Part shown: positions 25,020 through 42,715 of the stretch, in pieces | Layout of the letters: every line of letters starts with the position of its first letter | Numbering within the stretch: the stretch's first letter is position 1 | Assembly: GCF_021502585.1 (NCBI RefSeq) | Contig: NZ_JAKFGM010000001.1 | Span: forward strand, 496,001-560,000 | Direction of reading: 5' to 3' | DNA: 64,000 nucleotides | From: Sphingomonas cremea | Lineage (GTDB): Bacteria; Pseudomonadota; Alphaproteobacteria; Sphingomonadales; Sphingomonadaceae | Notes under the pieces: model-generated | Told to the model about the DNA's origin: nothing | Databases searched by the model: none | The model's input: the letters and a program-made list of their open reading frames with translations, nothing else | Made by a program: the position numbers and the translations under genes

Positions 25020-25176
25020 TCAATTGGCTGGCATTGTAGGAATGTATTTGCCAGCGTTTCGGCGGATCTTTGAACCGTCGAACTATAGAAACCCCGAAAT
25101 CGCCGCCGACCCCTTAACCTCACAAAAATGGCGCCTGGCCCCATGAAATTAGTGAATTTAAGGGCTGTCGATCGAC

Positions 25177-33043: not shown

Positions 33044-33490
33044 ATGACCGAGTTTCCCGTTCGCCATTTCCTGTCCGACGATGCCGTCGCCCATATTGGC
33101 GAGGGCCTTTTGTCACGCACCCTGCCTCGCGAGGAATGGACCCATGAGGCCCACCTCGCCGCGACCACTTACCTGACGCTTCGCCGCTTGGATATCGACC
33201 TCGACACTGAGTTGCCCGGGATCATCTCCCGCTACAACGAGAGCGTAGGCGGGGTGAACGACGATACTCAGGGCTATCATGACACGATCACGCGTGCCTT
33301 TTTGCGCGGAGTTCGGCTGTTCCTGGACGAAGCGGATACTCGCCGGCCGATCCATGAGCTGGTCAACGAACTGTTGCATTCGCCGATGGGCAAGCGCGAC
33401 TGGCCGCTGCGTTTCTGGTCGAAGGACCGGCTGATGTCCGTCGAGGCGCGGCGAAAGTGGATCGAACCGGACCTTCAGGATATGCCGTGA
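33044..33490 (+). CDS. Conserved protein of unknown function
   Basis: 148 aa, soluble. Noticeable segments are PREEWTHEAHLAATTYLTL, GIISRYNESVGGVNDDTQGYHDTITRAFL (split by no gap) and LHSPMGKRDWPLRFWSKDRL. The repeated His, Glu and Asp positions (EWTHEAH, DTQGYHDT) suggest a helical metal or ligand site. I remember this as a widespread unnamed family but cannot give a function. It ends at a hairpin that includes its stop codon. Confidence 0.75.
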   Translation: MTEFPVRHFLSDDAVAHIGEGLLSRTLPREEWTHEAHLAATTYLTLRRLDIDLDTELPGIISRYNESVGGVNDDTQGYHDTITRAFLRGVRLFLDEADTRRPIHELVNELLHSPMGKRDWPLRFWSKDRLMSVEARRKWIEPDLQDMP

Positions 33491-33505
33491 CCCCGTATCG
33501 GGGTC
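33489..33505 (+). terminator. Hairpin at the end of gene 33044-33490
   Basis: GACCCCG, TAT, CGGGGTC: a perfect 7-bp stem that begins within the stop codon. No T-tract follows, so it may protect the 3' end rather than terminate. Confidence 0.4.
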
Positions 33506-33646
33506 GCTAAATTCACTATTTTCACGGGCCTCGGCGCCATTTTTGTGAAGTTAGGGCCCGCGTCGTTCAAGCTATACCGGCGATGAGAAAGAGCCGGCCC
33601 GCCATCCCACAGCTTGTCGCCTGTAGGACAGGAATTTTTGACAGGC

Positions 33647-33678
33647 TAATGACCGGAATGGGTGGAAAGCGGTCATTA
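33647..33678 (+). repeat. Oriented inverted-repeat element, copy 1
   Basis: Left arm TAATGACCGG, spacer AATGGGTGGAAA, right arm GCGGTCATTA. The last three bases are the stop codon (TAA on the minus strand) of gene 33676-34161. Confidence 0.85.
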
Positions 33679-34161
33679 CGCTAACGCTCGTTCGCGGCAT
33701 CGTTTGACCACGTCCCACACGCCCATCGGGTGAACATGCAGGTCGTCGAGCGAAGCTGCGCCCGAGACGCTTCCAGCTCGTATTAGGACAGCGGACTTGC
33801 CGCTGCTCTGTTCGAGTTCCAGGTCGGCGACTTCGGACCATTTCAAGTCGAGGGGTCTCCCAGTCCAGCCTCGTAGGGTTATGCCATTGTCGTCGACCGC
33901 TATGGCCGGCTCCCCATTGTGATAGGCCCTTATCCTGCGCCAAATCCCCAAACCGAAAACAATTGGCGTTGTCCATGCAGCCGCTGCGACAAACCAAATC
34001 CCGTAGTTGTCGAACGCATTTCCGGACCGTTGATTTGGATCCAATACCGTGACGATGGCAGCGGCTGTAAGCCCAACGGCAAGCGCGAGTGTCCCCGCCG
34101 TCGGGAGGTAAGCGCCCAAGCGAGGCGGTCGAGCAAAGCGGAACTGGTGATGGCGCGTCAT
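33676..34161 (-). CDS. Two-helix membrane protein with PH-like C-terminal domain
   Basis: 161 aa. Two hydrophobic helices (GTLALAVGLTAAAIVTVL and IWFVAAAAWTTPIVFGLGIW) are followed by a small beta-rich domain (AIAVDDNGITLRG, LDLKWSEVADLELEQ) with the look of a bacterial PH domain. A basic N-terminus faces the cytoplasm. No function known. Its stop codon lies inside a repeat element and another element lies just upstream of its start. Confidence 0.7.
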   Translation of the reverse strand: MTRHHQFRFARPPRLGAYLPTAGTLALAVGLTAAAIVTVLDPNQRSGNAFDNYGIWFVAAAAWTTPIVFGLGIWRRIRAYHNGEPAIAVDDNGITLRGWTGRPLDLKWSEVADLELEQSSGKSAVLIRAGSVSGAASLDDLHVHPMGVWDVVKRCRERALA

Positions 34162-34185
34162 GGGCGCACCCTATTGGCACCTACC

Positions 34186-34217
34186 TAATGACCGCAATGG
34201 GTCGAAAGCGGACATTA
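34186..34217 (+). repeat. Oriented inverted-repeat element, copy 2
   Basis: Left arm TAATGACCGC, spacer AATGGGTCGAAA, right arm GCGGACATTA. It lies between the start of gene 33676-34161 and the 3' end of the PilZ gene. Confidence 0.85.
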
Positions 34218-34235
34218 GCTGCGGCGCGCAAGTTC

Positions 34236-34589
34236 TTAATCCCGGATTTTCATTCGGACGTCGAGGGCTCTGGATCGATCGATCAGGGCCGCGACGTCCC
34301 GCGCGTCCAGTTCGCTGTCGAAGCAAATGCCCATTACCCCGGCGCTGTTCCACCTGACCACCGCACCACGGCCAAGCGTCCCACAGTCCAAAATCACCGT
34401 CGTTCCGGTTGGCAGGCTTGCCGCACAGTCCAGCTTCGCGCCACCGGGAGATAGGTCGAGGAGCCGGACAGCATGGCGCTCTTCGTTGGCCTGCAGAAAC
34501 GCCGGTAACGCCACCGGGACCCGCGGATAGACGCGGCGATCCTCATAAGGATCATGGTTCAAGGGGGATGGGACGGGGTTTGCCATCAT
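34236..34589 (-). CDS. PilZ domain protein (putative c-di-GMP receptor)
   Basis: 117 aa. The c-di-GMP-binding RxxxR motif appears as DRRVYPRVPV (Arg19-Arg23) and the second motif as LLDLSPGGAKL (45-50). A single PilZ domain with no partner domain. It probably binds c-di-GMP and acts on a partner protein not identifiable here. It is flanked by repeat elements and unrelated genes. Confidence 0.88.
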   Translation of the reverse strand: MMANPVPSPLNHDPYEDRRVYPRVPVALPAFLQANEERHAVRLLDLSPGGAKLDCAASLPTGTTVILDCGTLGRGAVVRWNSAGVMGICFDSELDARDVAALIDRSRALDVRMKIRD

Positions 34590-34685
34590 TTCTCGCGACT
34601 GTGATGGCCTAGCACTGGGATGCTACTAGGAAGTAAATATTGAGGCTGAAATGGGCGGAGCGAGGAAATTAAGGCCGGCGCCCTT

Positions 34686-35057
34686 CTAGGCAGGCATCCA
34701 CGGCAGGCGTTCGCCCGCATGGCTTGAGGTAACGGGCTCGAATGAACTGGGGTCATCAAAGCTGCCGAGATGCAGAAACAACATGCCGGTTGCCGCCGCT
34801 TCCTCAAATGTGAGGGTGGAACCGCAGACCGCACAAAAGCCACGCATTACTCCAGGCGAGCTCTGAAAATAGGCTGGTCGACCTTTCGTATATTCGACAT
34901 TGTCGCGGTTGTAGTCAGCGAAACAGCTAGCAGGCGCACCAGTGTGTTTGCGGCAACTGCTGCAGTGGCACCAACCTACGCTAACGGGTTCGCCAATGGC
35001 GCGGAACCTGACCGCTCCGCAGAGACAACCCCCAGTGTACGATCCGCACAGGTCCAC
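34686..35057 (-). CDS. GFA family (formaldehyde-activating-like) zinc protein
   Basis: 123 aa. Seven cysteines in GFA spacing: Cys11/Cys13 (GGCLCGAV), Cys30/Cys32/Cys35 (WCHCSSCRK) and Cys75/Cys78 (FCAVCGS). GFA proteins bind zinc and are related to glutathione-dependent formaldehyde-activating enzyme; most are of unknown substrate. Complete domain. Confidence 0.9.
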   Translation of the reverse strand: MDLCGSYTGGCLCGAVRFRAIGEPVSVGWCHCSSCRKHTGAPASCFADYNRDNVEYTKGRPAYFQSSPGVMRGFCAVCGSTLTFEEAAATGMLFLHLGSFDDPSSFEPVTSSHAGERLPWMPA

Positions 35058-35069
35058 GCGACCCCCATT

Positions 35070-35103
35070 AGTGAAGTCCGCAATGGGTGGAAAGCAGTCA
35101 TTA
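35070..35103 (+). repeat. Oriented inverted-repeat element, copy 3 (degenerate)
   Basis: Left arm degenerate (AGTGAAGTCCGC), spacer AATGGGTGGAAA, right arm GCAGTCATTA. Lies between the divergent GFA and CDF genes. Confidence 0.7.
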
Positions 35104-35149
35104 TCTCACTCGCTGGACTTGGTTGCCGTTTCATGTTCAGGCCGGTTGG

Positions 35150-36085
35150 ATGACGACTGGGTCGGTAGAGTGCGGTCACGTGCACGGAGGCGCCGGACAT
35201 AGTCACGCGCCTGCCAATTTCGGACGCGCATTCCTGATCGGTACATTGCTCAATGTCGGGTTTGTCATCGTCGAGGCCGGCTATGGCATTGCGGTCAACT
35301 CGGTCGCGCTGCTCGCCGACGCAGGTCATAACCTGTCCGATGTATTCGGCCTGCTGATCGCATGGGGGGCGGCAACGCTGTCGAAGCGCAAGCCCAGCGC
35401 ACACTACTCCTACGGGCTGAGGCGAACCTCGATACTCGCGGCGTTGTTCAATGCCGTGTTCCTGTTGGTTGCCATTGGCGCAATCGCTTTCGAGGCGGTG
35501 CAACGCCTGATCCATCCGCAACCCGTCGAGGGCAGTGTCATTATGGCCGTCGCTGCCGTGGGCATAGTAATTAATGGCTTCACCGCATTGCTCTTCGCCG
35601 GCGGCTTGAAAAGCGACATCAATATCAGGGGAGCGTTCCTGCACATGGCGGCGGACGCGGCGGTGTCGGCGGGCGTGGTCGTCGCCGGTTTCCTCGTTAC
35701 GCGCACCGGTTGGTTGTGGCTTGATCCGGCGACAAGCCTCGTCATCGTCATCGTCATCCTGATTGGAACCTGGGGGTTGCTGCGTAGCTCCGTCGCCATG
35801 TCGCTGGATCGGGTACCGGATGGGATCGCGCCCGCCGAAGTGGAATCGGCCCTGATGGCGTTACCCGGCGTAATCCGTGTCCATGACCTCCACATCTGGC
35901 CAATGAGCACGACGGATGTCGCGTTGACCTGCCACCTAGTTATGCCCGCAGGCTGCCCGGGAGATTCCTTCCTCCACGACGCGAGCGCCATGCTTCACGA
36001 CCGGTTCGAGATAGATCATTCGACCATCCAGGTGGAGCGGGACGAACATGAAGCCTGCGCCCTGGCCCCCGCCACGGTGATTTAG
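35150..36085 (+). CDS. Cation diffusion facilitator (CzcD/ZitB type) metal exporter
   Basis: 311 aa. A His-rich N-terminus (CGHVHGGAGHSHA) precedes six predicted membrane helices. Metal-site residues are Asp57, His60, Asp64 (ADAGHNLSD) and the second HMAADA motif; a cytoplasmic C-terminal domain (VHDLHIWPMST) follows. Exports Zn or related divalent ions by proton exchange. The ATG at 35150 was chosen because the upstream frame runs through a repeat element. Confidence 0.92.
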   Translation: MTTGSVECGHVHGGAGHSHAPANFGRAFLIGTLLNVGFVIVEAGYGIAVNSVALLADAGHNLSDVFGLLIAWGAATLSKRKPSAHYSYGLRRTSILAALFNAVFLLVAIGAIAFEAVQRLIHPQPVEGSVIMAVAAVGIVINGFTALLFAGGLKSDINIRGAFLHMAADAAVSAGVVVAGFLVTRTGWLWLDPATSLVIVIVILIGTWGLLRSSVAMSLDRVPDGIAPAEVESALMALPGVIRVHDLHIWPMSTTDVALTCHLVMPAGCPGDSFLHDASAMLHDRFEIDHSTIQVERDEHEACALAPATVI

Positions 36086-36112
36086 CCGTCCTGGCGGGAA
36101 GAGCAGTTGGGC

Positions 36113-36143
36113 TAATGGCCTTAATGGGTCGAAAGCAGACATT
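36113..36143 (+). repeat. Oriented inverted-repeat element, copy 4
   Basis: Left arm TAATGGCCTT (degenerate), spacer AATGGGTCGAAA, right arm GCAGACATT. Lies between the CDF gene and gene 36191-37357. Confidence 0.75.
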
Positions 36144-36190
36144 CGGCGCGAAAGGCGTAATAATCTGGCCAGAGGCGAAGGGAGATTGCG

Positions 36191-37357
36191 ATGCCGGCCC
36201 ATGCAGCCGATGCGATCCGCATAATGTCCGGCTTCGCGGAGCGGACGGGGTTAACCTCCGATGCCGGGCCGAAACGCTATCTCTGGACGGATGCGTTCGC
36301 GCTCTGCAACTGGCTGGAGCTCTATCGAGAGAGCCGGGACGAGCGCTACCGTGACCTGGCCGCGACACTCATCGAACAAGTCCACCTCGTCCTTGGCCGC
36401 CACCGCCCGGACGATAGCAGAACGGGCTGGTTGAGTGGCCTGCCCGAGGAAGAAGGAGCGCTCCACCCGACGGCGGGCGGGCTTCGGATCGGAAAGCCAC
36501 TTCCGGAGCGTCGGACGAACGAGCCGTTCGACGATCGCCTCGAATGGGAGCGCGAGGGGCAATATTTCCATTATCTGACGAAATGGATCGATGCGCTCAT
36601 CCGGGCAGCGGTCATTCTCGACGCGCCCCATTTCCGTACGCAGGCGGCGGAGTTGGCCAAAGCCGTATTCAGACCCTTCCTGCTGACCTCACCAAGCGGA
36701 CGCCCGGTCGGCCTATCATGGAAGATGAGCATGGATCTTTCGCGCCCGCTGGTTGCGGGGAGCAATCCTCACGATGCTTTGGATGGATACGTCACTTATC
36801 GCTTGGTCGAGGAGATTGGCGGGGGTTCCAACTCCCCGCAAATCAGCAGCGAGATCAACGTGCTGCGTCAGCTTTGCATCGACGTTCAGTGGGGCACAAG
36901 CGATCCGCTGGGCATCGGCGGGCTTTTGCTCGACGCATTCCGGCTCGCAACCCTGCCGGACTTGCAAACCTCGGAAAAGCAGCTCCTTGGCAACATCATA
37001 TTCGGCGCTGAAGCGGGCGTTCAGCAGTTCTTGCGAAGCGGTGCGATGCAGGGGCAGCCCGCGATGCGCCTTGCATTCCGGGAGCTGGGCCTGGCGATCG
37101 GATTGCAGGCGTTGCCGGCCATCGCCATCGCAGCAAATCGCCTGGGAATGATGACTGGGAGCATCGCAGCCTCTCTCAGCTCGCTATTGTCGTTTGGCAA
37201 AGTCGACCGGGCCATCGTGGATTTCTGGTCCGAGCTGCAAAACCAGAGGGTCTCAACCTGGCAAGATCACCGCGACATCAACGAGGTGATGCTGGTCGCG
37301 GCGATACTTCATTCGCAGGTTGGAACGGCTCCGCTTCCTGCACCTCAAACTGCGTAG
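36191..37357 (+). CDS. 388-aa conserved protein, probable helical-barrel fold, function unknown
   Basis: Soluble and helix-rich. Conserved-looking segments: KRYLWTDAFALCNWLELYR, DDSRTGWLSGLPEEEG, HPTAGGLRIGKPLPER, then DDRLEWEREGQYFHYLTKW. The pattern of aromatic and acidic helices suggests an (alpha/alpha)6-type barrel as in some glycosidases, but no catalytic set is recognised. Standing alone between the CDF gene and the peptidase gene. ATG 36191 has AAGGGAG upstream. Confidence 0.7.
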   Translation: MPAHAADAIRIMSGFAERTGLTSDAGPKRYLWTDAFALCNWLELYRESRDERYRDLAATLIEQVHLVLGRHRPDDSRTGWLSGLPEEEGALHPTAGGLRIGKPLPERRTNEPFDDRLEWEREGQYFHYLTKWIDALIRAAVILDAPHFRTQAAELAKAVFRPFLLTSPSGRPVGLSWKMSMDLSRPLVAGSNPHDALDGYVTYRLVEEIGGGSNSPQISSEINVLRQLCIDVQWGTSDPLGIGGLLLDAFRLATLPDLQTSEKQLLGNIIFGAEAGVQQFLRSGAMQGQPAMRLAFRELGLAIGLQALPAIAIAANRLGMMTGSIAASLSSLLSFGKVDRAIVDFWSELQNQRVSTWQDHRDINEVMLVAAILHSQVGTAPLPAPQTA

Positions 37358-37467
37358 CTTCTCTCTCGCCTGCCACTTCCGCCCTTCGTCCGCCTGTCGA
37401 ACGATGCGTTGACGGTCGCGCGTGGTGCGGCCACCGTTCGGGTCGATATTCCGGAGGGGTAATTTCA

Positions 37468-39564
37468 TTGCGCACCATCCTGTTCGCCGCGCTGTCCGCG
37501 GCCGTTTCCACTTCCGCGCTGGCGCAGGCGGAGGATCCCAATCTCTGGCTTGAGGATATCGAGGGCCAGCGGGCGATCGCGCAGGTCAAGCAATGGAATG
37601 CGGCGACTGAGGCCAGCCTGACAACCATGCCGGGATTCGAGGAACGGCGGGCGCGTGCGCTGAAGCTGCTCAACGATCCCAACCAGATCGCAACCCCTGA
37701 TGAGGTGATGGGCGACCTGGTCGCCAATCACTGGGTTGATGCCGACCACAAGCGGGGGTTGTGGCGCGTGTCGCCGCTGTCCGCTTACCTGGCCGGCAAG
37801 CCCGTGTGGCGGACGCTGATCGACGTCGATGCGCTGGGCAAAGCCGAGGGCAAGAGCTGGGTCTGGCACGGCGCCAATTGCCTTCCGCCCGAATATCAGC
37901 GCTGCCTCGTTTCGCTGAGCCCAGGCGGCAGCGATGCCGACGTCGTTCGCGAGTTCGACCTCGCCGCCGGCAAATTCGTCGAAGGCGGGTTCACCGTGCC
38001 CGAGAGCAAGAACAGCGTCACCTGGGCGGATCGCGACACGCTTCTTGTCGCAATGGCCGAAGGCGAGGGGACCGTGACCCGCTCCGGCTATGCGCGGATC
38101 GTCAAGGAGTGGAAGCGCGGAACGCCGTGGAGTGCGGCGACCAAGGTTGCGGAAGCGAGTGAGAGCGATATCGGGATCAGTCCATTCGCGGTGATGGATG
38201 GCGATATCCGCCGCGTCGCAATCAGCCGCAACGTCGGCTTCTATGCGGCACGCGTGTCGATGCGCGCGCCCGATGGGCATTGGGTCGAGCTGCCGATTCC
38301 CGAGACCGCGATTTTCGACGCGGTTGTCTCGGGCCAGGCGATAGCCAGGCTAGTCGAGTCGCTGGGCCAGCTGAAGCCGGGCTCGGTCGTGGCGTTCGAC
38401 ATCGCGCAGATGCTCAGCGGCCAGAAACCCGAGCCGGCGCTGGTCATGGAACCGACCAAGAGCCAGGCGATCGAGGAGGTTGCCGCCACCGACAATGTGC
38501 TTTGGGTGAAGGCGCTGGACGATGTTTCGGGGAAATTGTTCGCGCTTCGCCGCCAGCCGGACGGCAGCTGGTCGAGCAAGGCCATGCCGCTTCTCGACCA
38601 CAGCACGGTTCACATTGCGGGTACGGCGGACAAGCAGGACATTGCCTTCGCCGCCGTCGAAGGAATGCTAAGCCCGACAACGTTGATGTCGGTGGATTCG
38701 ACCGGCAAGGCGGCCACGATCCAGGCCCTTCCGGCCCAGTTCGACGCGTCGAAGTTCAGCGTCGACCAGCGCTTCGCGACATCGAAGGACGGGACCCGCG
38801 TTCCTTATTTCCTGGTTCGCCGGAAGGGCGATAGCAGGCCGACCGGCGCGCTGATCCATGCCTATGGCGGCTTCCGCGCCGCGCAGACGCCGACCTATCT
38901 GACGGCCCAGCCCTATCGTTCCGGCCCGCTCGGCCTGTTTTGGGTGGAGCAGGGCGGCGCCTTCGTGCTGGCCAATATCCGGGGAGGCGGCGAATATGGG
39001 CCGGCGTGGCACCAGGCCGCGCTGCGCGAAAAGCGCCAGAACAGCTTCGACGACCTGGAGGCGGTTGCCCGCGACCTGATCCGCACCGGTGTGGCCCGCA
39101 AGGACGGCGTGGCGATTTCCGGCCGGTCGAACGGCGGCGTTCTGGTCGGAGCGGCGATGACCCAGCATCCCGAGCTTTATTCGGCGGTGATTGCCGGTTC
39201 GCCGCTGCTCGACATGAAGCGCTATTCGCACCTGCTCGCCGGCGCGTCCTGGGTCGACGAATATGGCGACCCCGACAAGCCCGGGGATTGGGCGTTCCTG
39301 TCCAATTACTCGCCCTATCAGAATGTGCGGCCAGGCGTTCGCTATCCGCCGACCTTCTTCTACCTGTCGACCAAGGACGACCGGGTGCATCCCGGCCATG
39401 CCCGCAAGATGGCGGCTAGGCTCAGCGCCGACGGCAATCGCATCTATTTTCACGAATATATGGAAGGCGGCCACTCGGTCGGGGCGGATCGCAGCGAAGA
39501 CGCCATGCGCGCCGCCCTGCTATGGGCCTTTTTGACCAAGGAGATTGGGTCTGGTGCGGACTAA
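37468..39564 (+). CDS. Secreted prolyl oligopeptidase family (S9A) serine peptidase
   Basis: 698 aa, TTG start with GGAGGGG upstream. Signal peptide (LFAALSAAVSTSALAQA), an N-terminal beta-propeller region, and a C-terminal alpha/beta-hydrolase with Ser554 in SGRSNGGVLVG, an Asp in TKDDRVHPGH and a His in MEGGHSVGAD. It should cut short peptides after Pro or a related residue in the periplasm or outside. A repeat element lies 26 bp past its stop. Confidence 0.93.
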   Translation: MRTILFAALSAAVSTSALAQAEDPNLWLEDIEGQRAIAQVKQWNAATEASLTTMPGFEERRARALKLLNDPNQIATPDEVMGDLVANHWVDADHKRGLWRVSPLSAYLAGKPVWRTLIDVDALGKAEGKSWVWHGANCLPPEYQRCLVSLSPGGSDADVVREFDLAAGKFVEGGFTVPESKNSVTWADRDTLLVAMAEGEGTVTRSGYARIVKEWKRGTPWSAATKVAEASESDIGISPFAVMDGDIRRVAISRNVGFYAARVSMRAPDGHWVELPIPETAIFDAVVSGQAIARLVESLGQLKPGSVVAFDIAQMLSGQKPEPALVMEPTKSQAIEEVAATDNVLWVKALDDVSGKLFALRRQPDGSWSSKAMPLLDHSTVHIAGTADKQDIAFAAVEGMLSPTTLMSVDSTGKAATIQALPAQFDASKFSVDQRFATSKDGTRVPYFLVRRKGDSRPTGALIHAYGGFRAAQTPTYLTAQPYRSGPLGLFWVEQGGAFVLANIRGGGEYGPAWHQAALREKRQNSFDDLEAVARDLIRTGVARKDGVAISGRSNGGVLVGAAMTQHPELYSAVIAGSPLLDMKRYSHLLAGASWVDEYGDPDKPGDWAFLSNYSPYQNVRPGVRYPPTFFYLSTKDDRVHPGHARKMAARLSADGNRIYFHEYMEGGHSVGADRSEDAMRAALLWAFLTKEIGSGAD

Positions 39565-39590
39565 AGCGCGCGATTGGATGCTGTAGGTTG

Positions 39591-39622
39591 TTATGGCCGG
39601 AATGGGTGGAAAGCGGTCATTA
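39591..39622 (+). repeat. Oriented inverted-repeat element, copy 5
   Basis: Left arm TTATGGCCGG, spacer AATGGGTGGAAA, right arm GCGGTCATTA. Lies between the converging peptidase gene and gene 39644-40183. Confidence 0.85.
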
Positions 39623-39643
39623 GCTAATTGGCTTTTGAGCGCC

Positions 39644-40183
39644 TCAACGATCTTCGGTTAGCATCGCAATGTGCTGGGTCATAAACCGCGCGTCCGGGTA
39701 TGTTGTCAGCCCAGCCCGGAAGGTTTGAGAGGGTGTGACAATCCGCCATTCGGAGGAAGTCATGGGCTTGCCCTTTACCTTCTTCACCTTGTCGGGCTGA
39801 GGCACAAGCGTTCCACCCAATCGGCCAGCAAGCGTTTGAAGTCTGTTGGCAAACTGGGACCGAGTTGCGTCCTCACTAGCTTCCACAATTTCCAAGGCGC
39901 AGACGCCGTTTGTTTCAATATGCACCAAGGCTCGCAATTCGGTTTGCTGGTCTTGAACATCCCAGAAAGGCTGCCCCTTGGACTCCGGCCTTATCTCGTT
40001 GACGGTTTTGGCGCTCAATTTCGTGAACTTAAATCGAGCGGGATCGACAGGCGTCTCGACCTTGGCAACGGTGCTGCCACAAAGATCAAAAAACACCGCC
40101 ACTCCCGCTGTTGCGCGGGGATCTTCGGCTACATTTGGCGATTGCGCTGCGAGGGCCGCAGCAGCGAAGGACGCGATGATCAT
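39644..40183 (-). CDS. Exported protein of unknown function
   Basis: 179 aa with a short signal peptide (IIASFAAAALAAQS). The mature part contains FFDLCGSTVAKVETP, PFWDVQDQQTELRALVHIE and a C-terminal SSEWRIVTPSQTFRAGLTTY. Base composition looks lower in GC than flanking genes, consistent with later acquisition. It resembles a recurrent sphingomonad exported family (NMCC_0638-like, from memory), unnamed. Flanked on both sides by repeat elements. Confidence 0.65.
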   Translation of the reverse strand: MIIASFAAAALAAQSPNVAEDPRATAGVAVFFDLCGSTVAKVETPVDPARFKFTKLSAKTVNEIRPESKGQPFWDVQDQQTELRALVHIETNGVCALEIVEASEDATRSQFANRLQTLAGRLGGTLVPQPDKVKKVKGKPMTSSEWRIVTPSQTFRAGLTTYPDARFMTQHIAMLTEDR

Positions 40184-40206
40184 CCAAGGCTTTTGGCAGT
40201 AGGGTC

Positions 40207-40238
40207 TAATGACCGCAATGGGTCGAAAGCTGCCACTA
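40207..40238 (+). repeat. Oriented inverted-repeat element, copy 6a
   Basis: Left arm TAATGACCGC, spacer AATGGGTCGAAA, right arm degenerate (GCTGCCACTA). First member of a tandem pair with copy 6b, four bases apart. Confidence 0.8.
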
Positions 40239-40242
40239 TGGC

Positions 40243-40273
40243 TTATGGCCGGAATGGGTGGAAAGAAGCCATT
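40243..40273 (+). repeat. Oriented inverted-repeat element, copy 6b
   Basis: Left arm TTATGGCCGG, spacer AATGGGTGGAAA, right arm degenerate (GAAGCCATT). Second member of the first tandem pair. Confidence 0.8.
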
Positions 40274-40276
40274 CCA

Positions 40277-40375
40277 CTACGAATAATGTGGCAGGGCTTT
40301 CCAGTAGACGACGACCGCAATCAGCAACATCGCGGTAGCGGCCCACAACATCCACTGACCGCCACCGAAAAACAC
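40277..40375 (-). CDS. Possible 32-aa single-helix membrane peptide or gene remnant
   Basis: GTG-initiated frame reading FFGGGQWMLWAATAMLLIA, then VVVYWKALPHYS. One hydrophobic helix. The same frame continues upstream past an in-frame TGA into another hydrophobic stretch (NFVGRLFSLGATILLL), so it may be the tail of a decayed two-helix protein. No clear RBS or ATG. Reported because it is the only coding-like stretch between repeat pairs. Confidence 0.25.
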   Translation of the reverse strand: MFFGGGQWMLWAATAMLLIAVVVYWKALPHYS

Positions 40376-40491
40376 CTTTCAGAGCAAGAGAATGGTAGCA
40401 CCTAGGGAGAACAGTCGTCCCACGAAGTTTAGTCGCCTTTCCGGCGTAGAGCTGATGTTTCTAATGTCAAAGGATAATGGACTTAGGGCGG

Positions 40492-40522
40492 AATGACCGC
40501 AATGGGTCGAAAGCGGACATTA
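40492..40522 (+). repeat. Oriented inverted-repeat element, copy 7a
   Basis: Left arm AATGACCGC, spacer AATGGGTCGAAA, right arm GCGGACATTA. First of the second tandem pair. Confidence 0.85.
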
Positions 40523-40525
40523 CGC

Positions 40526-40557
40526 TTATGGCCAGTTTGGGTGGAAAGCGGCCATTA
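40526..40557 (+). repeat. Oriented inverted-repeat element, copy 7b
   Basis: Left arm TTATGGCCAG, spacer TTTGGGTGGAAA, right arm GCGGCCATTA. Ends two bases before the stop codon of gene 40560-40775. Confidence 0.8.
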
Positions 40558-40559
40558 GC

Positions 40560-40775
40560 TCAATGCGGCTTGGAGGCTCGGCGTTGCCACAATCCCCAGC
40601 CAAACTTACCCAGGTTCCAGATGGCCAGCATACCGACCACTAGCCAAAACCAAGCGGTCGGCACGTCTTCAACGAAGCTCTTAAGCAGGCCCGAACGGAG
40701 CAGAAGCCAGAAGATTGCAAGGAAGGCGATCCCGCCCGCCCAAAGCTTCCATGAGTTTCGCAGGTCTTCGCTCAT
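40560..40775 (-). CDS. Small two-helix membrane protein
   Basis: 71 aa: MSEDLRNSWKLWAGG, helix IAFLAIFWLLL, loop with KSFVEDVPTA, second helix FWLVVGMLAIWNLGKF, basic tail. No family recognised. Compact, well-formed frame with an ATG start, bracketed by repeat elements on both sides (2 bp from its stop, 22 bp from its start). Confidence 0.55.
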   Translation of the reverse strand: MSEDLRNSWKLWAGGIAFLAIFWLLLRSGLLKSFVEDVPTAWFWLVVGMLAIWNLGKFGWGLWQRRASKPH

Positions 40776-40797
40776 GATGAGACAATAGCCTTTGCGC

Positions 40798-40829
40798 TAA
40801 TGACCGCAATGGGTCGAAAGCGGCCATTA
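40798..40829 (+). repeat. Oriented inverted-repeat element, copy 8
   Basis: Left arm TAATGACCGC, spacer AATGGGTCGAAA, right arm GCGGCCATTA. Last copy seen in the window, just before the 3' end of the DUF885 gene. Confidence 0.85.
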
Positions 40830-40852
40830 GACCCATTGCGGTTCGCCCTTGA

Positions 40853-42715
40853 TCAGGCCGCGGACGCTTTCGTTATCGCAATATATTCGTCGATGTTCCT
40901 GGCGAGCACGTCGAGCGGGACGTTGCCGCCCTTGACTACCGTGTCGTCGAAATCGCGAAGGTCGTAGCGGGCGCCGAGCGCCTTCTGCGCACGGCTGCGC
41001 TGGCGGACGATCTCCGTATGGCCGATCTTGTAGCCGCAGGCCTGGCCGACCCAGCTGCAATAGCGGTCGACTTCGCTTGCCACTTCCTCGGGCTTCGAGC
41101 CGTTGGTCTCGACGAAGTAACGGACGCCCTGCTCGCGGGTCCAGCGCTTGTGGTGGATGCCGGTGTCGACGACCAGGCGGATGGCGCGGAAAGCCAGGCT
41201 CTGCAGATAGCCGAGGCGACCGACCGGGAAATCGTCGTAGACGCCCAGTTCGTCGGCCAGCTGCTCGGCATAGAGCGCCCAGCCTTCGGAATAGGCGTTG
41301 AACGCCAGCTGGGCGCGGATCAGCGGCAGCTGGTTCGAATATTCGCCCTGCCAGACATGGCCCGGGATCGCCTCATGGTGGGCAAGGTCGGGCAGGTCGT
41401 ACTTGCGGTGCAGGTCGGTAGTGCGAAGGTTGATCCAGAATCTGCCGGGGATCGAACCATCGATCGACCCGGCGCCGCCATAGGCGCCGGGTGCGCCGGG
41501 CTCTTCCTCGGGCGGCAGGCGCTTCACTTCAAGGTTGCCTGGGACCAGCGTGCGGAAGGCGCGGGGAAGCTGGGCGCGGATGATCTTCAGCCGTTCCTGG
41601 ATGAAGGCCATGATCTCGGCCCGTCCGGCATCGCCCTCCGGGAATTTATATCGCGGATCGTCCGAGAGCGCGGTCATGCGCGCGCCGACCGAACCCTGCG
41701 TATAGCCGAGGCTCTTCAGGATCACGTCCATCCGGCCATGCAGCTCGGCGACCTGGTCGAGGCCCATCTGGTGGATTTCGTCCGGGGTCATCGTGGTGGT
41801 GGTCGATGCACGCAGGGCCCAGCGGTAGAATTCCGGGCCATGCGGGCGCGCCCACATGCCGGCGTCCATCGTCGCTCGGGCGCGCTGGGCGGTCAGCTCG
41901 GCCAACTGCCGTTCGAGGGCGGGGGCGACCTTCTGCTGGGCGATGGCCCGGGCGCGATTGGCCCAGTCGCCCGGAATATCCTTGGTTCGCCGATCCAGCG
42001 ATTCGACCAGCCCGCCCCCTTCGCGGGCACCTTTGACGCTCATCGTCATCTGGTTGGTCGCCTTGTCGATCAGGAAGGCGGGGGCGATCAGGTCCTGCGC
42101 GCCGGCGGCCTTGAGCCGCCCGAGCTCCCCATCCAGCTGGACCGCATAGCTTTCGAGGCGGGCGAGATAGGCGTCGGCATCCGCCGCATTTTTGACCGGG
42201 TGCTCGCTGTCGAGGAAGCGCGGCACGTCGAGGTAAGCGCCGACATTCTGAATCACGACATAGGGGGTGTTGCGCCAGCCGCCGACCGCGACATCGCCAT
42301 AGGGCTGGGCAAGGCCGTCAAGCGCGACGCGATATGCCGATTTCACGACCTCGACGCTGGTCTTGGTGGAGTGGGTAAGCGCGGCGGTGTTGACTGCTTC
42401 GGCGCGCGCGAGGTCGGCGCGAAGCGTTTTGGCAAGCCCGTCCTGCCCAGCCTGGCTGCGATCGGCGAGCTTCGAACGGAGATAGGCGCGTGCGCCGGTA
42501 TCGACGCCGAGGCTGGTGGCGCCTTCGGGTGACAAGGCGAGGAGGTTCTCGCCGATCGAATCGAGCAGTGCGGTGACGCCCGCCTCATCGGCCGCGGACG
42601 GACCGGTCGCGAGGGCTCGGGCACCGCCGGGCAGGGCAATGGCGGCAACACCTGCCGAGAGGGCGCCAAGCGCCTGGCGGCGCGAGAAGCTGAGATCGTT
42701 CACTACATTCTCCAA
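40853..42715 (-). CDS. DUF885 family protein, Tat-exported putative metallopeptidase
   Basis: 620 aa. A twin-arginine signal (SFSRRQALGALSAGVAAIALPG) targets it to the periplasm folded. The hallmark DLAHHEAIPGHVWQ contains the HExxPGH metal site of the DUF885 family, related to thermolysin-like peptidases. Substrate unknown. An antisense 504-aa open frame across it is a shadow. The NfeD gene starts upstream on the same strand, 4 bp away. Confidence 0.9.
   Translation of the reverse strand: MENVVNDLSFSRRQALGALSAGVAAIALPGGARALATGPSAADEAGVTALLDSIGENLLALSPEGATSLGVDTGARAYLRSKLADRSQAGQDGLAKTLRADLARAEAVNTAALTHSTKTSVEVVKSAYRVALDGLAQPYGDVAVGGWRNTPYVVIQNVGAYLDVPRFLDSEHPVKNAADADAYLARLESYAVQLDGELGRLKAAGAQDLIAPAFLIDKATNQMTMSVKGAREGGGLVESLDRRTKDIPGDWANRARAIAQQKVAPALERQLAELTAQRARATMDAGMWARPHGPEFYRWALRASTTTTMTPDEIHQMGLDQVAELHGRMDVILKSLGYTQGSVGARMTALSDDPRYKFPEGDAGRAEIMAFIQERLKIIRAQLPRAFRTLVPGNLEVKRLPPEEEPGAPGAYGGAGSIDGSIPGRFWINLRTTDLHRKYDLPDLAHHEAIPGHVWQGEYSNQLPLIRAQLAFNAYSEGWALYAEQLADELGVYDDFPVGRLGYLQSLAFRAIRLVVDTGIHHKRWTREQGVRYFVETNGSKPEEVASEVDRYCSWVGQACGYKIGHTEIVRQRSRAQKALGARYDLRDFDDTVVKGGNVPLDVLARNIDEYIAITKASAA

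Follow-up and report, generated by a model that had tools for sequence, protein, structure and literature searches.

Organisation of the island

The window analysed here is a stretch of 64,000 nucleotides from the genome of Sphingomonas cremea (C1:496001-560000 of an assembly, G000, of 2.55 Mb in nine contigs), and it contains, within a single accessory island, ten copies of a short element with two inverted arms that we consider to be putative recombination sites. The island, interpreted below as a cassette array, runs from 33475 to 40876, ends that are those of the alignment and not exact, and is bounded by an open reading frame (ORF) adjoining PEPCK (33044-33490) and by a DUF885 gene on the minus strand (40853-42715). 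These flanking genes adjoin with less than 100 bp between them in three of ten relatives (loci L064, L068 and L069), other inserts of 0.7-2.5 kb occupy the position in five and the remaining two are not collinear there; the 7.4 kb content of the island is absent from this locus in all ten of the PEPCK regions compared. A second island of the same genome, C1:594236-598735, is replaced by 15 bp in one relative (G041) and by 1.35 kb of different content in another (G049).

All ten copies that an initial annotation had placed in the region 33647-40798 are present, each on the plus strand. Site 1 (33645-33680) has the centre GGGTGG, here called type G, and site 2 (34184-34219) has GGGTCG, type C; between them lies a minus-strand ORF (33676-34161), missed by the gene caller used here, whose match to a bacterial PH domain is borderline (PF10756, 22.0 bits, equal to the cut-off). 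Sites 2 and 3 (35070-35105, type G) enclose two minus-strand genes, one with a PilZ domain (34236-34589; PF07238, 39.5 bits) and one of the GFA family (34686-35057; PF04828, 87.9 bits), and a CzcD-like cation-efflux gene on the plus strand (35180-36085, this start being the chosen one; PF01545 and PF16916 on 35087-36085) lies between site 3 and site 4 (36111-36146, type C). Between site 4 and site 5 (39589-39624, type G) there are two plus-strand genes, one without a Pfam match (36191-37357) and one of 698 codons (37468-39564) whose product may be prolyl-oligopeptidase-like; the window neighbours of the latter do not align beside its homologue in the 11 relatives compared. A minus-strand ORF without a Pfam match (39644-40183) precedes site 6 (40205-40240, type C), which forms a doublet with site 7 (40241-40276, type G), as does site 8 (40489-40524, type C) with site 9 (40524-40559, type G), and the last in the array is site 10 (40796-40831, type C), which a gap of 21 bp separates from the DUF885 3' end. 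Along the window the variable position of the centre is thus ordered G C G C G C G C G C.

The core is exactly AATGGGTSGAAA in nine of the ten copies and is the variant TTTGGGTGGAAA in site 9 (core at 40536). All nine exact matches in the window fall within 33657-40819 on the plus strand, and allowing up to two mismatches gives 18 matches in the window against 7.4 expected in shuffled sequence. A weight matrix of 36 positions, built from 119 seeds and trained on two genomes that do not carry the recombinase described below, scored 10 bits or higher at 111 places in 266 kb of selected loci, a figure that counts the mirror hits on near-palindromic copies, and nowhere in the same 266 kb reversed. 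In the window a threshold of 9 bits adds only two mirror hits on copies already listed, in keeping with the earlier statement that the rest of the window has none. Within this window the elements are confined to accessory DNA.

Orientation and distribution of the sites

Exact cores number 62 in the genome of S. cremea, of which 49 are forward and 13 reverse along the contigs, and the reversed core pattern has no match. The single orientation that the initial annotation saw in the window holds for each island and fails for the genome; elsewhere in the genus, genomes come close to strand balance (for example 20/21, 14/12 and 22/17). Neighbouring sites no more than 2.5 kb apart are co-oriented in 121 of 122 pairs at the loci examined in G000 and G049. 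Since islands occur on both strands of one contig and orientation switches many times along contigs, a role in replication or segregation polarity, one of the suggestions in the initial annotation, finds no support, a judgement made without a formal skew test. The suggestion that the elements mark transcript 3' ends fares no better, with 41 genes between elements antisense and 30 sense (p = 0.24), and the same count gives no support to the idea that cassette genes mostly oppose their sites, which was dropped. The loci were picked for holding exact cores, so that these and other array counts are no random sample. Small membrane-protein-like families (FEFFFSFYGLLLG-like and VGWELAIVTLGV-like) recur in different arrays (L081, L076, L091, L040 and L046).

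In a search of 100 genomes, that of S. cremea included, the core extended by GC was found in 54 of the 61 genomes of the genus with up to 61 matches per genome. Outside the genus 7 of 39 genomes had a single match each, and the reversed pattern matched in 2 of the 39.

Site architecture and the two centre types

Each site consists of two inverted arms, GCTAATGWCCGCTTT and AAAGCGGWCATTAGC, with alleles in each, around the asymmetric centre GGGTSG, and the core as a whole reads (A/T)(A/T)TGGGTSGA; when the TT allele is present, the site is made up of an inverted arm of 15 bp, then GGGTSG, then the second arm. The description of the element as an inverted repeat stands as far as the inversion of the arms is concerned; that of a maintained stem does not, as the arms assort almost independently. 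Over 219 sites linkage reaches z values of about 19 within the left arm and 16 within the right and does not exceed 3.0 across the arms; the z values treat related sites as independent and the argument is the contrast between the within-arm and between-arm figures. The arm pair -5/+16 is complementary in 89 of the 219 elements where independence predicts 76.2, and the AA/TT pair at positions 0-1 tracks the left arm (z of 5.2 and 3.9 to position -5). The arms are thus close to equilibrium across the core, a pattern that points to a break located rightward of position 1 but short of the right arm.

These data bear on whether the elements could be hairpins, either of the repetitive extragenic palindrome (REP) type, spread by a REP-associated tyrosine transposase (RAYT) or another Y1 transposase, or hairpins at transcript ends. 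The elements are short imperfect palindromes, lie between genes in the window and have many copies per genome, all of which would suit REP-like repeats; however, their near-independent arms disfavour a hairpin through lack of stem co-variation, they keep a single orientation locally and nothing in the window matched Rfam at gathering scores. The initial annotation saw no RAYT in the window, and the whole genome of S. cremea is without a Y1_Tnp match; of the 71 genomes searched in the genus only three have Y1_Tnp, and these hold 24, 5 and 1 cores. We regard hairpins as the least credible of the explanations weighed here. A related candidate in which G and C sites would be the left and right ends of IS200/IS605-like elements was dropped for want of a Y1 enzyme and in view of the cassette copies, whose breaks fall within the cores.

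The two centre types are arranged non-randomly. They alternate inside arrays elsewhere in G000 as in the window, and 12 of the 14 close doublets (34-37 bp) of that genome have C then G, with one C-C and one G-G. Arrays of G049 end in a C site in 14 of 16 cases, where 4.8 are expected after shuffling within arrays.

A small tyrosine recombinase between divergent arrays

In other genomes rich in the element a gene of about 200 codons lies between divergent arrays. It encodes a tyrosine recombinase of about 180-207 amino acids with little beyond the catalytic domain, which matches PF00589 at 75.3 bits, and in which R42, K70, H139, R142, H165 and Y174, presumably the catalytic residues, are invariant in 15 homologues. 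We refer to its close relatives, with at least 67% identity, as clade I; there are 20 near-complete copies in 18 of 71 genomes, fragments excluded. In a midpoint-rooted tree clade I is set apart by a branch whose support is 98/88, and among 296 genomes of the order the clade is found only in this genus, the best match elsewhere having 62% identity.

Sites were present at all 18 of the clade-I loci examined, which were the best hit in each genome, and those scoring above 18 bits diverge from the gene without exception, 35 of 35 to the left being on the minus strand and 27 of 27 to the right on the plus strand. The site nearest to the gene is of type G in 31 of 34 cases. Among control loci sites were found at 3 of 36 from the sister group of clade I and at none of 23 with Xer-type and some other recombinases. 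Furthermore, cores are more numerous in genomes with clade I than in those without it (16 and 45 genomes, p = 5e-4). This linkage and co-distribution suggest that the clade-I enzyme acts on these sites.

The clade-I enzyme is far under every NCBIfam cut-off among the matches listed, including that of the tyrosine-type DNA invertase NF007370 (27.5 bits against 221), and its closest solved structures are XerD and XerC-like chains (E 3e-7 and weaker). The best plasmid relative among the matches listed, with 66% identity, is on Bosea plasmid pNBC550 (L270) and falls outside clade I on a long branch; repeats of AATGTCCGCT type occur at this locus about 113 bp from the recombinase gene on both sides. 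A more distant relative (55%) is on E. coli plasmid p1 (L273). A search of 12 loci of the sister group (clade II) for flanking inverted sites gave none that was convincing save at L261, where two C sites point towards the gene, and no array. Isolated look-alike sites with the centre GGGGCG were seen near sister-group recombinases (L268:1331, L269:2186 and L217:1287).

Two better known kinds of enzyme have to be weighed against clade I at this point. The first possibility is that XerC and XerD act on the sites, as in the dif modules of Acinetobacter. Only three tyrosine recombinases were found in S. cremea, none of them clade I, and two of these, the third being longer, we take to be Xer-like, so that Xer would supply an enzyme where the small one is absent, and a 6-bp centre between inverted arms would suit it. 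Yet none of the 23 control loci carried sites, a result tempered by the fact that Xer needs no linkage to its sites, Xer is universal whereas the sites track clade I and occur mainly in one genus, and the arms are not known to resemble dif. Action by Xer is improbable, and is still the strongest of the alternatives. The second possibility is an array of the integron type, with attC sites and IntI or as an attC cluster without integrase. Head-to-tail units, arrays without an enzyme and a distinct end site would all be expected of an integron, and GFA is a gene family familiar from integron cassettes. Against this, only one of the three copies compared with the integron integrase model TIGR02249 had a listed match, at 16.6 bits where the cut-off is 265, the sites of about 36 bp show no attC boxes (no attC program having been run), and the near-free assortment of the arms makes a poor fit to a folded single-strand attC site. 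We therefore consider an integron highly improbable.

An arrangement of interest in G049, at L076:3316-3579, consists of two arrays head to head and divergent with 263 bp between them and no recombinase, and looks like the head of a platform whose enzyme was lost.

Cassette copies and the proposed mechanism

Near-identical copies of cassettes give a view of where exchange may take place. In S. cremea C2:151402-151781 and C2:715180-715559 are 97.9% identical over 380 bp, and the likeness begins within the left core and stops within the right one, the arms beyond these points being different. A 351-bp pair in S. rhizophila (98.6%), with one copy behind the leader-like repeat described below and the other beside the recombinase gene, has its edges within two cores, one of type G and one of type C (TTTGGGTGG and AATGGGTCGA). 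G021 carries two copies of the recombinase unit, 2356 bp with 91.3% identity that end at the flanking sites, and older cassette pairs often have one side ending at or near sites. Homology edges within the core are the signature of site-specific recombination there. The alternative that these are inert repeats under general homologous recombination, without a dedicated enzyme today, draws on the 20-30 bp common to the repeats and on G000 and G049, which have many sites and no clade-I gene. It would seem very unlikely, given that four of four breakpoints in the two clearest copies fall in the core, and given that the sites keep strictly to one local orientation and diverge from the genes of a single clade of recombinases.

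From the sequence comparisons above we estimate a probability of about 85% that the elements are the places of crossover in a system of gene cassettes to which a small tyrosine recombinase is dedicated. In such a system the recombinase would bind both arms and exchange strands in the core, probably with circular intermediates, and cassettes would join head to tail, which, the centre being directional, would give co-oriented arrays. The recombinase gene heads two arrays running away from it; capture would take place at the G sites near the enzyme, and the array would be closed by a C site. The initial annotation had suggested a mobilising enzyme with a strand preference; a mobilising enzyme is supported in the form of the small tyrosine recombinase, and a strand preference is not needed because recombination between directional sites itself yields head-to-tail arrays. 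Tyrosine recombinases such as Cre, Flp and Xer require matching overlaps, so that G sites would be expected to recombine among themselves, as would C sites, and the transfer of a G-x-C unit would take one exchange at each of its ends. If, as we infer, the G and C centres are incompatible, such units would be locked in place or swapped whole, and the S. rhizophila copy would fit this. The arrays of G000 and G049 may be survivors of a lost enzyme, in which case the genome of the window would formerly have had a clade-I recombinase.

A number of observations weigh against this proposal. Clade-I genes were searched for in G000 and G049, both rich in sites, without a match, and matches to recombinase relics in the loci examined there were at chance level; G032, a fragmented assembly, is a third genome with many cores and no clade I. 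The cassette pair of S. cremea looks recent and has no clade-I enzyme in its genome, so that a missing plasmid, a recent loss or another enzyme has to be invoked. Two of 15 further integrase loci have sites nearby (L229 and L231, which belong to G060, the genome richest in the element), and a 17.7-bit match at a clade-I locus (L248:2257) faces the wrong way. The empty site in G049 has no site-like sequence, which leaves the arrival of the first site in an island unexplained. The ending of arrays in a C site is a weak rule in G000 (12 of 18 against 8.3 expected, p = 0.049), and at some older junctions G stands opposite C. There is a slight surplus of complementary arm pairs (the 89 against 76.2 given above, and 141 against 128.5). 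The S base at position 7 is weakly linked in both directions (z of 3.5 to +16 and 3.6 to -1), and in the first 151 sites its linkage reached 5.6 (to -1, G000) and 4.9 (to -9, pooled); with S linked to both sides the crossover is placed within the core and not at an exact base. Finally, the simple gene caller, which also misses some ORFs of the window, found no gene in 67 of 130 segments between sites, so that the term gene cassette is not proven for every segment.

The leader-like repeat

A further feature of the window is a leader-like repeat on the plus strand (33533-33631), with GGCGCCATTTTTGTGAA at 33533 and CCTGTAGGACAG at 33620-33631, the latter 16 bp ahead of the AATG arm of site 1. At many arrays the leader lies 16-18 bp before the first site, which is usually a forward G and in a few cases a reversed C site (L182, L183 and L146), and at several loci it is preceded by tandem repeats of 8-10 bp. 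The pattern TGTAGGACAGnnnWWTY occurs in 51 of 61 genomes of the genus, with 0-14 copies per genome, and the reversed control gave one match in each of four genomes. The leader was considered as a key, attI-like, part of the system and this was dropped, as it is a separate repeat whose number does not follow that of the elements; ORF families shared by at least two of 18 leader loci, the set inspected, include none that is recombinase-like. A copy of the GGCGCCATTTTTGTGAG part of the leader lies at 25135 on the minus strand of the window with no site nearby. The word TGTAGGACAG is also found after GAGTCG and after TAACC...GGTT (L147, L148, L150, L152, L154, L155 and L166), and a promoter or RNA start is suspected.

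Comparison with known systems and significance

Gene cassettes are known chiefly from integrons, dif modules being a second case. Integrons have arrays of units in one orientation with the enzyme at the head and a different end site, and some arrays have no enzyme. The arrays described here share all these features, but have no IntI and no recognised attC, the enzyme heads two divergent arrays, the sites behave like a pair of independent arms and the genes lie either way. FimB and FimE, at about 200 amino acids, invert one promoter; the clade-I enzyme is like them in size and in its weak match to the DNA invertase family (NF007370, as above), and differs in being associated with arrays of many sites.

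In Acinetobacter genes are moved as pdif modules between short two-arm sites with a 6-bp spacer, with exchange between sites whose spacers are identical or near-identical, as reported in PMC13141974. The sites of those modules are inversely oriented (C/D and D/C in alternation), lie on plasmids and are served by the Xer pair. In contrast, the sites of Sphingomonas are oriented as direct repeats, occur on large contigs and stand on either side of a small enzyme of their own, and with 121 of 122 neighbouring pairs co-oriented they do not alternate in orientation.

In layout the sites are like lox, FRT and dif sites, which have inverted arms around an asymmetric centre; the linkage break and the two cassette pairs put the crossover here within the asymmetric centre that the inverted arms enclose. 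Cassette exchange by Cre between unlike lox sites is a laboratory tool. The system of Sphingomonas would resemble it in its inverted arms, directional centre and two centre types at the ends of units, and would differ in being a natural chromosomal arrangement, with the incompatibility of G and C as a probable feature. We propose, tentatively and at slightly less than even odds, a platform independent of integrons and Xer, in which a recombinase the size of a catalytic domain, two divergent arrays, 36-bp double-strand sites and two incompatible centres would permit addition at G sites and locking or swapping of G/C units, a natural cassette exchange that would shape islands genus-wide. No published account of these sites was found in the open literature, a search that lay mostly outside subscription journals and does not show absence from print.

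A further platform, based on simple double-strand sites and a single small enzyme, could account for some of the accessory genes in these soil Sphingomonas genomes and would add another way in which bacteria shuffle genes. The two centre types would constitute a natural case of cassette exchange, and the system would allow a direct test of site choice by catalytic-domain-sized recombinases; if active, it may also be a compact tool for directed insertion.

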